Shown here: in pieces, positions 23,218-29,376 of the stretch
How the letters are laid out: every line of letters starts with the position of its first letter
Position numbering within the stretch: position 1 is the stretch's first letter
The notes under the pieces: generated by a model
Database searches by the model: none
What the model was told of the DNA's origin: nothing
Seen by the model: only the letters and a program-made list of their open reading frames with translations
Source: Pseudomonadota bacterium
Lineage (GTDB): Bacteria > Myxococcota_A > UBA9042 > GCA-2863065
Assembly (NCBI GenBank): GCA_005776585.1
Contig: SXOX01000088.1
Location: forward strand, 62,001 to 126,000
Direction of reading: 5' to 3'
Length of the DNA: 64,000 nt
Position numbers and translations under genes: made by a program

Positions 23218-23287
23218 CGGTCGGGGGCAACGGATGGCCGTGCCCCCGGCATCCATCGACTCCGGACCGCCTCTCGGGGGCCTTGCC

Positions 23288-24355
23288 ATGACCCAGAAGA
23301 ACAACGTCCACGTCGTCGGCACCGGCACGATCGGCGAGCCGCTTATCGGTATTCTCAGCGTCATGCGTCGTGAGTTTGGAATAGACGACGTAACGTTTCA
23401 CAAGGCAACGCCGCGGTTGACGGACCGACCCAAGGTGCGCGCCCTGCAGGACAAAGGCGCCACGTTGGCCGCGACGCCCGAGACGTACGACGCCTTTCGC
23501 AAGCTCGGGATCGAGCCGGTCATGACGCACGAAGAGGCTATCGAGCAGGCGCGCGTCGTCATCGACTGCACGCCAGTTGGCAATGAGAACAAGGATCAGC
23601 TGTTCACCAAGTTCGACGATGGCTCGCGGGTCTTCGTCGCCCAAGGGAGCGAGTTCGGCTTCGGCAAGCCCTATGCGCGCGGGATCAACGACGGCGCGCT
23701 CGTCCGTGGCGAAGATCGCTGGGTGCAGGTCGTCAGTTGCAACACGCACAACATCGCGGTGCTCATCAAGACGATCGGCGGGGTCGGCGGCGGCGCCGGG
23801 AACCTCGAGTCGGCGCGGTTCTTGTGTATTCGCCGGGCAACGGACATTTCACAGAACGATGACTTTCTGGCCTCGCCCGAGGTAGGCAAACACGAGGACG
23901 CCAAGTTTGGCACGCACCACGCGCGCGACGCGGCCTATCTGTTTCACACGCTCGGGCACGACCTCGACCTGTTCAGCTCGTCGATGAAACTAAATACACA
24001 GTACATGCATGCGATTCACTTCGACATGCGCTTGACAATCGACATCAACACCGAAGAGGTCATTCGTCGCCTGCGCGACGAGCGCCGGGTGTCGGTCACG
24101 CATCGGCGCGACTCGGCCACGATCTTCAGCTTTGGGCGCGACCACGGCCTGTACGGTCGCATACTGAACCAGACCGTCGTGAGCATCCCGACGGTCGCCG
24201 TGCGCAACAAGCGTGAGGTGGTCGGCTTCTGCTTCACGCCGCAGGACGGGAACTCGCTGCTGAGCTCCATCTCCGTCGCGCTCTGGGCGCTGCACGAGAC
24301 CGGCTGGGACGACCGGATGCGCAACCTTCGACCCTATTGCTTCTCCGAGATCTAA
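23288..24355 (+). CDS. Type II (archaeal-type) glyceraldehyde-3-phosphate dehydrogenase-like protein
   Basis: This 355-residue protein has an N-terminal Rossmann motif VHVVGTGTIGEPL, DCTPVGNENKDQ and the catalytic-type motif VVSCNTHNIAVLIKTI (about residues 150-165). The order resembles archaeal type II GAPDH (GxGTIG, VVDCTPxG, VVSCNTT) rather than the bacterial GapA signature SCTTN. It also carries a C-terminal region (RNKREVVGFCFTPQDGNSL) longer than I expect for the archaeal enzyme. The assigned cysteine is present, but substrate and cofactor cannot be told. The ATG at 23288 is chosen because the domain begins immediately afterwards. The phosphoesterase gene follows by 24 bp, so they probably form an operon. 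The function could be a dehydrogenase other than GAPDH. Confidence 0.7.
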   Translation: MTQKNNVHVVGTGTIGEPLIGILSVMRREFGIDDVTFHKATPRLTDRPKVRALQDKGATLAATPETYDAFRKLGIEPVMTHEEAIEQARVVIDCTPVGNENKDQLFTKFDDGSRVFVAQGSEFGFGKPYARGINDGALVRGEDRWVQVVSCNTHNIAVLIKTIGGVGGGAGNLESARFLCIRRATDISQNDDFLASPEVGKHEDAKFGTHHARDAAYLFHTLGHDLDLFSSSMKLNTQYMHAIHFDMRLTIDINTEEVIRRLRDERRVSVTHRRDSATIFSFGRDHGLYGRILNQTVVSIPTVAVRNKREVVGFCFTPQDGNSLLSSISVALWALHETGWDDRMRNLRPYCFSEI

Positions 24356-25270: not shown

Positions 25271-26518
25271 TCAATCCGCAACACGCTCCGAGGAGCCGGC
25301 TGCGGTCCAGGTCACGGAGTCGGGCGAGGCGCCGGCCTGCATCATCGACCAGAGGGGCGAGAGCGCACGAAGCCGCTCGACGGTCGCCACGGTCCGCTCG
25401 AGCGCGAGGTCGATGTCGGCATCCGTCGTGCCGCGACCCAACCCGAATCGCAGGGCGCTGAACGACAGCGCACGGGGGACGCCGATGGCGTCGAGCACGT
25501 AGCTCGGTTCGAGCGACTGCGACAAGCAAGCGGAGCCGGAGGAGACCGCCAGGCCGTCGAGGCCCATCAGCAGCGCCTCTCCCTCGACGCAGGCGAAGCT
25601 CACATTGAGGTTGTTCGGCAGCCGATGGCTCAGGCTGCCATTGACGCGCACCTGCGGCACGCGGGCGAGGAGCCCGGCGAGTAGGCGGTCGCGCAAGGTC
25701 GCCTGGCGCTGGGCCTCGGCTTCGCGCTCGGCGAGCATGAGCTCCGCGGCGCGGGCGAAGCCCACGATCAACGGCACGGGCAGCGTACCGGAGCGATAGC
25801 CACGCTCGTGCCCTCCGCCGTCCATCTCGGCGAGCAGGCGGACGTCCGGAGCGCGCCGGACCACGAGCGCGCCCACGCCCTTGGGACCATAGAGCTTGTG
25901 CGCCGAGAGGCTCACGAGGTCGAGCGCGTCGTCGTGCAGGTGCAACGGCAAGCGCCCGAAGGACTGCGCCGCGTCCGTGTGGTACGTGACGCCACGCGCC
26001 CGGCACAGCGCGGCGATGGCGCGAATCGGCTGGACCACGCCAATCTCGTTGTTGGCGTGCATCACGCTCACCAAGACGGTGTCCGGCCGCAGGGCCTCGG
26101 CGACCTGTGCGACGGTCACCAGGCCCTCGCCGTCGACCGCGAGCCGCGTGACGCGGACGCCCTGCCGCTCGAGAGACGCGGCGGTGTCGAGGACCGCCTT
26201 GTGCTCGGTGACGACCGTGACGATGTGACAGCCCGCCAGTCCACCGAGGCGCTCCGAGGCCGCCGCCGCGACGCCCTTCAACGCAAGGTTGTCGGCCTCC
26301 GTCGCGCCGCTCGTGAACACGATCTCCTTCGGGCTCGCCCCGATTGCGCTCGCCAGGCTCTCCCGCGCCGCCTCGACGGCGTCTGCGGCCTCCCAGCCGT
26401 AGACGTGGCTCTTCGATGCCGCGTTGCCGAAGCGGTCGGTGAAGTACGGCAGCATCGCCTCCAGCACGCGCGGATCCAGTGGCGTCGTCGCGTGATGGTC
26501 GAGGTAGATCGGGCGCAT
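25271..26518 (-). CDS. Cysteine desulfurase (NifS/IscS family)
   Basis: This 415-residue PLP enzyme begins [19 protein letters not shown], the typical NifS/IscS start. It contains [14 protein letters not shown], the PLP lysine in [12 protein letters not shown], and the active-site cysteine in SSGSACLSQ. It removes sulfur from cysteine to form a persulfide for Fe-S clusters or thionucleosides. The last 30 residues extend past the usual end and look unstructured. The ATG at 26518 is chosen because TAGACT lies 7 nt upstream and the domain begins at once; the longer frame has shadow composition. No isc or suf scaffold genes are adjacent. A second, diverged desulfurase-like gene lies at 47096. Confidence 0.88.
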
Positions 26519-26525
26519 TGCCGCC

Positions 26526-26531
26526 AGTCTA
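26526..26531 (-). promoter_or_regulatory. -10 element next to the cysteine desulfurase start
   Basis: TAGACT on the minus strand ends 7 nt before the ATG at 26518. No good -35 is visible. It implies a leaderless or near-leaderless mRNA. Confidence 0.4.
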
Positions 26532-26646
26532 CTCGATCCCGAGCCTCGAAGGTTCCGGGCCACGACACGATTCGAGGACGCTCGTCGAGCCTCTAGCACC
26601 ACGATCTCGGTGCGGCGGAGGCCATTTTTATTTTCAGCGGACTCCA

Positions 26647-26675
26647 TTGCGAGCGCCAGTAGCGACCGTTATAGT
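26647..26675 (+). promoter_or_regulatory. Sigma-70-type promoter of the ATP-grasp cassette
   Basis: TTGCGA, 17-bp spacer and TATAGT. Transcription would start near 26682, 35 nt before the GTG of a small ORF that carries its own ribosome site. Confidence 0.6.
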
Positions 26676-26716: not shown

Positions 26717-26866
26717 GTGAGCAGCAGGACCTACGAGCAGACGGAATCGGCGCCAGTCGAAGCCGGCCCACGGCAAACAGAGGTGGCGGCCGTGGACGCC
26801 TCGTCGGAGGACGCCGAACCACCAGACTCCCCAGCCGCGCCCGCACGGGCCCAGGGTGGACGATGA
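26717..26866 (+). CDS. Small 49-residue ORF leading an ATP-grasp ligase cassette
   Basis: A GTG at 26717 is preceded by GGTGGAGG with 8 nt spacing, and a good promoter ends about 40 nt upstream. The peptide is acidic and rich in Ala, Glu, Pro and Ser, ends in RAQGGR, and has no hydrophobic segment. Its TGA overlaps the ATG of the first ATP-grasp gene (ATGA), so the two are translationally coupled. It could be a substrate peptide for the ligases, a regulatory leader, or a chance frame in GC-rich DNA. The signals around it are better than chance, but no homologue is known to me. Confidence 0.4.
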   Translation: MSSRTYEQTESAPVEAGPRQTEVAAVDASSEDAEPPDSPAAPARAQGGR

Positions 26867-27882
26867 AGATCGGCATCACCTTCGACCTGCGGTCTGACTA
26901 CGCGCACCTCGACGTTGGCCCCGAGGACCGCCTCGAGGAGTACGACAGCGACACGACGGTCGACGCGATCGCGCAGGCGCTCGCGGAGCTGGGCCACACG
27001 CCCGTGCGGCTCGGCGGCGGCCGCGCGTTCCTGCAAGCCGTGCTGACCTCGCCGCCAGACCTGGTCTTCAACTTCGCCGAGGGCTATGGGACGCGCTCGC
27101 GCGAGGCGCACGTGCCCTCGGTGCTCGAGATGCTCGGCATCCCGTTCACGCAGTGCGATCCGCTGACCGCCGCGCTCACGCTGGACAAGCCGCTCGCCAA
27201 GCGCGTCGTGGCCTCCTTCGGCATCCCGACCGCCCGTTTCGCGGTCATCGACGACGCCGCCCACCTGGACGCGGCGCTGGAGCTCGCGTTTCCGGTCATC
27301 GCCAAGCCCGCCTTCGAAGGGTCGAGCATGGGCATCCGCCGCTCGTCACGCTGTGTGGACCCGGATGCGCTACGGGAGCTGGTCCTGGCGCTCCACGCGG
27401 GCTACGCGCAGCCGGTCCTCGTCGAAGAGTTCCTACCCGGTGCGGAGTTTACCGTCGGCGTGCTCGGCACCGGGCCAACGGCGCGCTGCATCGGCGCCAT
27501 GGAGATCGTGCCCAAGCGCGCCCCGATCGCGTCGTTCGTCTATTCGCTGGAGGCCAAGCGCGACTATCAGAACGAGGTGAGCTATCACGCGCCGCCGCGC
27601 CGGCCTGCGGGGCTGGTCGAGGCGGTGGAACGCGTCGCGCTGGACGCCTACCGCGCGCTCGGCTGTCGGGATGTTGGCCGCGTCGACGTCCGGCTCGACG
27701 CACAGGACCGGCCCTGCTTCATCGAGGTCAATCCCCTCCCGGGGCTCAACCCGGTGACGGGCGATCTGGTCCTCCTCGCGGCGGGCTGCGGCATGGACTA
27801 TCGCGAGCTGATTGGGGCCATCGTCACGGGTGCGTGTCACCGCGCCGGCCTGCCCATCGGCGAGAAGGGACGCGCCCTGTGA
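26863..27882 (+). CDS. D-Ala-D-Ala ligase-like ATP-grasp enzyme (first of a tandem pair)
   Basis: This 339-residue protein has the ATP-grasp fold of the Ddl family: an N-terminal lobe (MKIGITFDLRSDY), DLVFNFAEGYGTRSREAHVPSVLEMLGIPFTQCDP, the ATP-binding FPVIAKPAFEGSSMGI (about residues 145-160), VEEFLPGAEFTVGVL, and the metal-binding CFIEVNPLPGLNP near residue 288. Canonical Ddl ends in EINTxPG, so this is a related carboxylate-amine ligase with unknown substrate. It overlaps the upstream small ORF (ATGA) and the downstream ligase (GTGA). It is not in a cell-wall cluster, so a role in true D-Ala-D-Ala synthesis is unlikely. Confidence 0.8.
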   Translation: MKIGITFDLRSDYAHLDVGPEDRLEEYDSDTTVDAIAQALAELGHTPVRLGGGRAFLQAVLTSPPDLVFNFAEGYGTRSREAHVPSVLEMLGIPFTQCDPLTAALTLDKPLAKRVVASFGIPTARFAVIDDAAHLDAALELAFPVIAKPAFEGSSMGIRRSSRCVDPDALRELVLALHAGYAQPVLVEEFLPGAEFTVGVLGTGPTARCIGAMEIVPKRAPIASFVYSLEAKRDYQNEVSYHAPPRRPAGLVEAVERVALDAYRALGCRDVGRVDVRLDAQDRPCFIEVNPLPGLNPVTGDLVLLAAGCGMDYRELIGAIVTGACHRAGLPIGEKGRAL

Positions 27883-29039
27883 ACCGTAAGCCGTTTCGAG
27901 TGGCCGTCCTCTACAACGAGTGCGCCACGCCTCAGTCGGTCGGACGCGGAGAGCTGCTCGACACCATCGCCGTCCGTGGCGTGCTCGACGCCGTGCGTGG
28001 CGTCGCGACGGCCTGCGAGCAGAACGGCTGGGAGGCGCTGCCGCTGGCGGCCTCCGACGATCCCCGTCAGATCCTGGCCGACCTCCAGCGCCTCCGTCCG
28101 GACGTGGTCTTCAACCTCGTCGAGGAGCTGCGCGGAGACGCGCGGTGCGAGGCGGGCGTGGCCTGGCTCCTGGAGCTGGGCGGTTTCCCGTACACAGGGT
28201 GCACGCCCTCGGCCATCGCGCTCGGCCTGGACAAGCCGGTGACACGGGCTGTGCTGCGCGACCGCGGCGTGCCGGTGCCGCAGGGACGCGTCCTGGCGAC
28301 CGGCGACGAGTCGCTCAGCGGCATGCGCCTGCCGGTCATCGTGAAGCCGTCGCGCGAGGACGCGAGCCTCGGGATCACCGCCGCGAGCGTCGTCCGCACT
28401 CACACCGCAGCCCGGGAGCGGGCGCGCTACGTCATCGACCGCTATCGCCAGCCCGCGCTCCTCGAGGAGTTCATCGACGGGCGCGAGTTCAACGTGTCGG
28501 TCATCGGCCACGGCCCCACCGCGCGCGTCCTGTCGTTGGCGGAGATCGACTTCTCCGGCCTGCCGGCGCACCTCCCGCAGATCGTGACCTACGACGGAAA
28601 GTGGCTCGCGGACAGCCCCGAGTGCCTCGGCACGGAGGCCATCGCCGGACGTGCGACCGCCCCGGACCTGGAGCGCGCGATCGTCGCCACGGCGCTCGCC
28701 GCCTATCGCATCGTGGGCCTGCGCGACTACGGTCGCATCGACCTGAGGGTCAGCGCCGAGCGGGGCCCGTTCGTCATCGAGGTCAACCCCAACCCCGACA
28801 TCTCACCCGACGCGGGCCTCGCCAGAGCCGCCTCACGGAGCGGCATCCCCTATGAGCACCTCATCGCGCGCATCGTCGAGTCCGCCGCCGAGCGAGCCCA
28901 CCCGCATTCGACCCCTCGCAGCGTCCGACCGCGCGCGGCTCGCGGAGATACTGTCGGCGACCGGGGCCTTCTCAACCGACGAGATCGCGGTGGCGCTGGA
29001 GCTGATCGACGCCGCATCGAGCCCGCAACCGGACCCTGA
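27879..29039 (+). CDS. D-Ala-D-Ala ligase-like ATP-grasp enzyme (second of a tandem pair)
   Basis: This 386-residue protein starts at a GTG overlapping the previous stop (GTGA). It is an ATP-grasp enzyme with DVVFNLVEELRGDARCEAGVAWLLE, LPVIVKPSREDASLGI (about residue 150), LLEEFIDGREFNVSVIG and FVIEVNPNPDISPDAGLARAA (about 300-320). It is clearly diverged from its partner, suggesting different substrates or a heterodimer. The recognisable domain ends near residue 345. The last 45 residues are Arg/Gly-rich and overlap the next gene for 188 nt in another frame, so they may be an unstructured read-through tail. The two enzymes probably act in sequence on one pathway. Confidence 0.78.
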   Translation: MNRKPFRVAVLYNECATPQSVGRGELLDTIAVRGVLDAVRGVATACEQNGWEALPLAASDDPRQILADLQRLRPDVVFNLVEELRGDARCEAGVAWLLELGGFPYTGCTPSAIALGLDKPVTRAVLRDRGVPVPQGRVLATGDESLSGMRLPVIVKPSREDASLGITAASVVRTHTAARERARYVIDRYRQPALLEEFIDGREFNVSVIGHGPTARVLSLAEIDFSGLPAHLPQIVTYDGKWLADSPECLGTEAIAGRATAPDLERAIVATALAAYRIVGLRDYGRIDLRVSAERGPFVIEVNPNPDISPDAGLARAASRSGIPYEHLIARIVESAAERAHPHSTPRSVRPRAARGDTVGDRGLLNRRDRGGAGADRRRIEPATGP

Positions 29040-29376
29040 GCCGTATCTCGTCTCGGTGGCCACGCACGCCGACCGGGTCGTAGGCTATGCGTGCTACGGC
29101 ATTACGCCGCTTACGGGTGGCGGGGTCTACGATCTCTATTGGATCGCGGTGGACCCGACGCTCCAGGGCGGCGGCGTTGGCCGCCTGCTGATGGCCCACG
29201 TCGAACGCGAGGTGAAGGCCGCCGGCGGGCGCAAGGTCCTGGTCGAGACGGCGTCCAAGCCGTCCTACGCGGCCACACGCGCGTTCTACGAGCGCATCGG
29301 CTACGTCGAGGAGGCCCGCCTGCGGGACTTTTACGCCGAAGGGGACGACAAGCTCATCTACTCACGCCGGGTCTGA
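28852..29376 (+). CDS. GNAT family N-acetyltransferase
   Basis: This 174-residue protein begins its fold at TRIRPLAASDRARLAEIL (residue 17). The core follows: VVGYACYGITPL, VYDLYWIAVDPTLQGGGVGRLLMAHVEREV (acetyl-CoA pyrophosphate loop Q-x-x-G-V-G, about residues 103-120), and the YAATRAFYERIGYVEEARLRDFY motif typical of RimI-like acetyltransferases. It would transfer an acyl group from acyl-CoA to an amine. The ATG at 28852 lies inside the preceding ligase gene; a later start is possible because the first 15 residues are Ser/Pro-rich. The overlap with the ligases implies joint expression, so the acceptor may be their product. It overlaps the convergent Rieske gene by 15 bp. Confidence 0.85.
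   Translation: MSTSSRASSSPPPSEPTRIRPLAASDRARLAEILSATGAFSTDEIAVALELIDAASSPQPDPEPYLVSVATHADRVVGYACYGITPLTGGGVYDLYWIAVDPTLQGGGVGRLLMAHVEREVKAAGGRKVLVETASKPSYAATRAFYERIGYVEEARLRDFYAEGDDKLIYSRRV

Follow-up and report, generated by a model that had tools for sequence, protein, structure and literature searches.

A conserved tandem of Ddl-like ATP-grasp ligases with a GNAT acetyltransferase as a candidate cassette for acetylated β-lysine peptides

Microviridin gene clusters combine two ATP-grasp ligases with an acetyltransferase of the GNAT family, and in the pathway of N-acetylglutaminylglutamine amide (NAGGN) an ATP-grasp ligase and a GNAT together make an N-acetylated dipeptide. NAGGN has been described as a solute (PMC1224877) and N-epsilon-acetyl-β-lysine as an osmolyte (PMC3543383, PMC9337991). 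Here, we have analyzed a stretch of 64,000 nucleotides of bacterial DNA (contig SXOX01000088.1, positions 62,001 to 126,000, termed the window), which contains a compact cassette encoding two tandem relatives of the D-alanine ligase Ddl, termed G1 and G2, and a GNAT. With microviridin and graspetide clusters the cassette shares the two ATP-grasp ligases and the GNAT, but its ligases are of the Ddl type instead of being RimK-like and it is devoid of a conserved precursor peptide gene. In joining ATP-grasp ligation to the acetylation of what might be a dipeptide it resembles the NAGGN pathway, from which it differs by the presence of two Ddl-type ligases and by its association with lysine 2,3-aminomutases (LAMs). 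Latter association also relates it to the AblA/AblB pathway, since in many relatives a LAM and a GNAT reside in one cluster and the acetylation would equally mask a charge, whereas the two extra ligases, a GNAT that is not AblB and the lack of a LAM in the cassette of the window set it apart. The kinds of enzymes are already known, and their combination in four genes appears to be a new arrangement. We have found no paper on a LAM with tandem ATP-grasp ligases and a GNAT in the open-access literature, although a survey of amidoligases from 2009 (by Iyer and colleagues) could contain this neighbourhood, and we thus make no claim to its first sighting.

We propose that G1, G2 and the GNAT constitute a small-molecule biosynthesis cassette, which would ligate β-lysine (or lysine) with other amino acids in an untemplated manner to yield a product that is acetylated, a reading for which we judge the chances to be about even. 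In the cassette, G1 extends from an ATG at 26863 to a TGA at 27882, G2 from a GTG at 27879 to a stop at 29039 and the GNAT from an ATG at 28852 to 29376. A 49-codon open reading frame (ORF) precedes G1, running from a GTG at 26717 to a TGA at 26866. Successive frames overlap by 4 nt (ATGA, 49-codon ORF and G1), 4 nt (GTGA, G1 and G2) and exactly 188 nt (G2 and GNAT). The coordinates and the GTGA and 188-nt overlaps given in a preliminary description of the locus were all reproduced from the ORF coordinates. The features of the locus are:

26647–26675, plus strand: match to a sigma-70-like promoter (TTGCGA-17-TATAGT, 9/12 in a consensus scan), which as a match only is not functional evidence
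26717–26866, plus strand: 49-codon ORF, judged to be no gene from codon usage, homologue searches, overlap geometry and family matches
26863–27882, plus strand: G1, Ddl-like ATP-grasp amino-acid ligase of 339 residues (PF07478, E 1.1e-29; Ddl fold)
27879–27882, plus strand: GTGA stop/start overlap between G1 and G2, likewise possible in relatives
27879–29039, plus strand: G2, second Ddl-like ATP-grasp ligase of 386 residues as defined by the ORF (PF07478, E 1.8e-23), whose conserved part stops near 28914
28852–29376, plus strand: GNAT acetyltransferase of 174 residues (PF00583, E 1.3e-13)
28852–29039, plus strand: overlap of the G2 and GNAT frames by 188 nt, from ORF coordinates

Both ligases have diverged from Ddl, as stated in the preliminary description. 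They resemble Ddl in their length and ATP-grasp fold and match the domain Dala_Dala_lig_C (PF07478), and Foldseek searches with their AlphaFold models (pLDDT of 91.6 for G1 and 85.0 for G2) return Ddl structures as top matches (E 8.7e-27 and 6.4e-23). In alignments, the Lys, Arg, Asp, Glu and Asn residues of the ATP/Mg site are retained in the pattern that is characteristic of ATP-grasp catalysis, whereas two motifs of Ddl are altered. The KY loop, which contains the tyrosine equivalent to Tyr216 of E. coli DdlB, is replaced by KR in G1 and KW in G2, and the second-substrate motif S-L by TGDL and AG-L, respectively, with an Asp at this site (Asp301) being invariant in the G1 family. Both proteins score far below the NCBIfam cut-offs for Ddl and Van ligases, with values of 162 bits for G1 and 132 for G2 against 243 in NF002378, and of 128 and 103 bits against 245.65 in TIGR01205. 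A separate canonical Ddl (L003) is encoded in the same genome, and both the KY and the S-L motifs are retained in L003 and L052. The cassette ligases are thus distinguished from Ddl by their occurrence as two divergent tandem paralogues next to a GNAT, by the replaced motifs and by their low scores.

These results bear on the question whether G1 and G2 could be cell-wall enzymes making D-Ala-D-X variants of peptidoglycan, as for example in glycopeptide resistance. Although all top profile and fold matches are to Ddl and Van ligases and a MurJ-like flippase adjoins certain LAM-G1 pairs in relatives, the scores far below the cut-offs, the loss of the Tyr216-type and second-substrate motifs and the separate canonical Ddl make this assignment improbable, and neither a linked GNAT nor a LAM would be expected in such a system. 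The neighbours of the cassette are a divergently oriented cysteine desulfurase of the IscS/NifS type and, at the opposite end, a Rieske oxygenase, without van or mur genes at either flank, and we thus agree with the earlier view that its context is not that of the cell wall.

The distribution of the module was investigated in searches of 53 related genomes and named GTDB contigs and in a separate survey of the phylum, which encompasses 96 G1-bearing genomes. Tandem G1-G2 loci are found in the class and phylum of the window, in Thermodesulfobacteriota, Bacteroidota and Planctomycetota, and all three components, G1, G2 and the GNAT, occur together as an old module that the phylum of the window shares with Thermodesulfobacteriota and Bacteroidota. 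A phylogeny calculated from 103 ligase domains places G1 of the window with its counterparts in L145 and L142 (SH-aLRT 99) and G2 as sister to its L142 counterpart (support 91), so that G054/L142 and G196/L145 are the genomes with which both ligases group. Protein identities to the window amount to 62% (L145) and 58% (L142) for G1, 53% (L142) for G2 and 55% over 120 residues (L142) for the GNAT. The four-nucleotide overlap between G1 and G2 recurs in L040, L042 and L146 and is possible in L071 and L073, G2 and the GNAT are fused in frame in L140 and L141, and tandem G1-type ligases are found in a single chain in L064, L067, L147, L148 and L150, among others. Of the preliminary description, which had suggested an undescribed ligation pathway, this part has stood: the conserved ligase-ligase-GNAT unit is best read as an uncharacterised pathway for amino-acid or peptide ligation, whereas the role ascribed to the small ORF has not. 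Solitary relatives of G1 are located next to a nitrilase-type hydrolase in Planctomycetota (L036, L037), a protein with cyclic-nucleotide-binding and HEAT domains in Gammaproteobacteria (L041, L045) and an adenylate-cyclase/TPR protein in Rhizobiales (L044, L047, L048; domains annotated in L044 only).

In many of these loci, G1 is accompanied by an adjacent gene for a radical-SAM LAM (PF12544 and PF04055). This gene adjoins the ligases in L038, L039, L040, L042, L043, L046, L049, L051, L065, L071, L073, L075, L078, L135-L144, L151 and L152, in the order LAM-G1-G2-GNAT in L039, L040, L042, L046, L140, L141 and L142, the last being the full cassette nearest to that of the window, and in the order G1-G2-GNAT-LAM in L071, L073 and L075. 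In the phylum survey, matches to G1 and LAM_C lie within about 2.5 kb on one contig in at least 23 of the 96 genomes (G009, G016, G052, G054, G073, G100, G107, G108, G115, G119, G133, G141, G148, G152, G156, G164, G183, G191, G194, G195, G207, G214 and G223), compared to about 0.2 genomes expected by chance according to our own estimate, assuming at most two such genes per genome of about 5.5 Mb. Two further LAM-linked genomes (G020 and G024) originate from the first survey.

The aminomutase of L042 aligns over 360 residues with the lysine 2,3-aminomutase 2a5h, in which the lysine side chain is held by Asp293 and Asp330. In the alignment of linked aminomutases to this structure, the cysteine triad and the PLP-binding Lys337 are present in 25 of 25 rows and both aspartates in 16, with position 293 being occupied by Gln in eight rows, which form one G1-LAM clade, and by Glu in one. 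The linked enzymes exceed the cut-off of the KamA family (TIGR00238). Five of them score with 317–494 bits against the 525-bit cut-off of AblA, and the cassette enzymes are also below that of EpmB (245 against 369 bits in one example), which places them as KamA-family members outside of both equivalog models. From this sequence relationship, β-lysine is the probable usual building block of LAM-bearing cassettes. Directly 3' of G1-LAM pairs carrying Gln at the position of Asp293, a gene for a MurJ-like flippase is found in two loci (L136:8155-9813 and L151:7399-9009), and such pairs possibly define a distinct subtype with another substrate. In two genomes, a G1-LAM pair neighbours an AbgT-family transporter of the p-aminobenzoyl-glutamate type (L135:8497-10164, L152:2640-4202), and a cyanophycin-synthetase-like gene (L141:3-2900) is located just 5' of a LAM-G1-G2-GNAT cluster. 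In a further locus on plasmid pTHIMO01 of Thioflavicoccus mobilis (L154, 6691-12172), genes for a diaminobutyrate transaminase, an SbnA-type 2,3-diaminopropionate synthase, an ornithine cyclodeaminase and a Ddl-like ATP-grasp protein follow each other and are adjoined by a convergent KamA radical-SAM gene, which together likely encode a diamino-acid peptide pathway.

The third protein of the cassette belongs to the GNAT families according to its PF00583 match. The profile of its family (A3) matches PDB entry 2r7h, annotated as 'putative D-alanine N-acetyltransferase', over nearly its full length (193 bits for positions 5-155 of 158, with the runner-up at 44 bits), the function of 2r7h itself being a putative annotation. 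An assignment as AblB was rejected, as the GNAT of the window does not match TIGR03827 and the AblB family was found nowhere in its genome. Two plasmid-borne GNAT matches, in Nostoc and Aquisphaera, were dismissed as relatives of the cassette upon inspection, as they are not adjoined by ligases. In two loci of Desulfobulbaceae, a histone-deacetylase-like domain is fused to the cassette GNAT (L042:8000-10249, L039:8012-10258).

The module with its conservation and fusions, its linkage to LAMs, the lysine-binding residues of the LAMs and the divergence of the ligases from Ddl are computational results, from which we infer what the substrates are, in which order they are ligated, where the acetyl group is placed and which role the pathway has in the cell. 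In related cassettes, the linked LAM would convert L-lysine to β-lysine. As members of the ATP-grasp family, G1 and G2 would each use ATP to convert a carboxylate to an acyl phosphate for its ligation to an amine, resulting in a di- or tripeptide containing β-lysine or a related diamino acid, and the GNAT, owing to its family, would acetylate an amino group either on a building block or on the product. By analogy with N-epsilon-acetyl-β-lysine and NAGGN, the product would most likely be an N-acetylated, charge-masked short peptide serving as compatible or stress solute and less likely an exported bioactive compound. An AsnO-type glutamine amidotransferase was not found among the annotated neighbours of the cassettes, in which no search aimed at an amidotransferase was made.

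Several observations weigh against the proposed synthesis of acetylated β-lysine peptides. No aminomutase is found in or near the cassette of the window. Its genome, which is 87% complete, encodes two homologues elsewhere, L093 on another contig and the more distant L094. In a tree, L093 clusters with unlinked aminomutases of other genomes apart from the cassette LAMs, and we have thus discarded the idea that it is a relocated cassette LAM. The Gln in one clade and the Glu in one row at position 293 suggest that the substrate may vary by subtype. Finally, the cassette loci have neither a transporter nor a salt-response gene as a consistent neighbour. The use of β-lysine by the organism of the window is thus suggested by homology, with the unlinked L093 as its possible source, or else the ligases might accept other amino acids.

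Latter case is captured in the reading that the cassette of the window makes an N-acetylated di- or tripeptide from ordinary α-amino acids and that β-lysine is confined to cassettes containing a LAM. It would account for the missing LAM in the window, in the f5 cassettes of the same class, and in L145 and L146, and for an aminomutase complement in the genome that is not of the cassette type. Conversely, the nearest full cassette (L142) does contain a LAM, the ligases of the window group with those of that genome, and the genome of the window does encode an aminomutase elsewhere in which Asp293 and Asp330 are both intact. On balance we consider the restriction to α-amino acids unlikely, though worth serious attention. 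The combination of aminomutase, ligase and acetyltransferase would also be compatible with the tagging of a protein by β-lysine or another amino acid, similar to the action of EpmA and EpmB on elongation factor P, followed by acetylation of the tag. Given that the cassette LAMs remain below the EpmB cut-off and that no conserved gene for a target protein is linked among the annotated neighbours, such modification appears quite improbable.

Returning to a small peptide containing β-lysine, we tentatively extend the proposal, at somewhat lower confidence, to a widespread and undescribed class of untemplated β-amino-acid peptides, in which a LAM, a pair of Ddl-derived ligases and a GNAT of the 2r7h type would make acetylated β-lysine di- or tripeptides in several phyla, with subtypes, such as those with Asp293Gln LAMs or fused ligases, leading to different products. 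We are dealing with a common and compact cassette that is uncharacterised and whose members are readily annotated as D-alanine ligases. If the proposal was correct, a re-reading as enzymes for peptide solutes or natural products would be required for many 'extra Ddl' genes, both in the phylum of the window (probably Myxococcota) and in Planctomycetota, Thermodesulfobacteriota and Bacteroidota, and acetylated β-lysine peptides would constitute a defined chemical prediction.

In the preliminary description, the acidic product of the 49-codon ORF had been considered as substrate or carrier of the ligases. This idea leads to a ribosomal, graspetide-like pathway, with the ligases introducing crosslinks into a 49-residue precursor that would also be acetylated by the GNAT. 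The layout recalls microviridin clusters, and the promoter and ribosome site that had been described in front of the ORF are found as one sigma-70-like site at 26647-26675 (9/12 in the scan, compared to a mean of 0.1 sites in shuffled sequence) and a plausible Shine-Dalgarno sequence. Nevertheless, the ORF lacks a coding signature: its codon-usage score of –0.26 lies below that of every true 49-codon segment sampled from genes of the window (0.44 ± 0.19) and is exceeded by 33% of wrong-frame segments, and its GC3 is 0.71 compared to 0.79–0.91. Profile searches returned no family match, and no homologue above chance was detected in 52 other related genomes; among all 53, a convincing match was confined to the window, with four others at E 0.02–0.09, none of them at a cassette. 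The conservation in relatives on which the proposed role had been made to depend is thus not observed, and among the ORFs located 5' of G1 in 24 other loci none comparable recurs. Even the ATGA overlap is automatic, because G1 starts with a conserved Met-Lys (ATGAAG), whose ATGAA forces any ORF in the overlapping frame to stop at the TGA, and in L036, L042, L044, L057 and L065 this ATGA likewise terminates short ORFs without relationship to it. Based on codon usage, conservation and this forced geometry, we have rejected the ORF, which is almost certainly not a gene, although it could still serve translation as lineage-specific upstream ORF. With ligases that are of the Ddl type (PF07478) and not RimK-like, a graspetide-like pathway is highly improbable. 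A search of Rfam across 24–31 kb of the window found no riboswitch or other RNA upstream of the cassette.

The 188-nt overlap between G2 and the GNAT is the longest among the examined cassettes with separate genes. In relatives, the GNAT overlaps with G2 by 4 to about 95 nt, follows after a gap of up to about 70 nt or is fused to it in frame, and in L042 a deacetylase-like domain is inserted between the two. The long overlap is not a special feature but a consequence of G2 running on past the end of its relatives, which terminate within a few codons of residue ~345 of the window protein. The frame in the window extends for about 40 residues to position 386, with residues ~346-386 being absent from all relatives and residues 351-386 modelled at a pLDDT below 50 by AlphaFold, while the GNAT frame is coding-like (GC3 of 0.86 over 28903-29373). 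The draft genome may contain a sequencing error that gives rise to this run-on of G2.

With respect to neighbouring genes, the listed start at 26647 of the divergent cysteine desulfurase (25271-26647) is probably too far upstream. As the match to NifS/IscS covers the protein from about residue 45 onwards, translation likely starts near 26518 instead, which widens the intergenic region. Further away, the gene at 23234-24355 encodes a protein resembling a diverged archaeal-type (type II) glyceraldehyde-3-phosphate dehydrogenase, whose score of 78 bits is well below the family cut-off of 185 bits.

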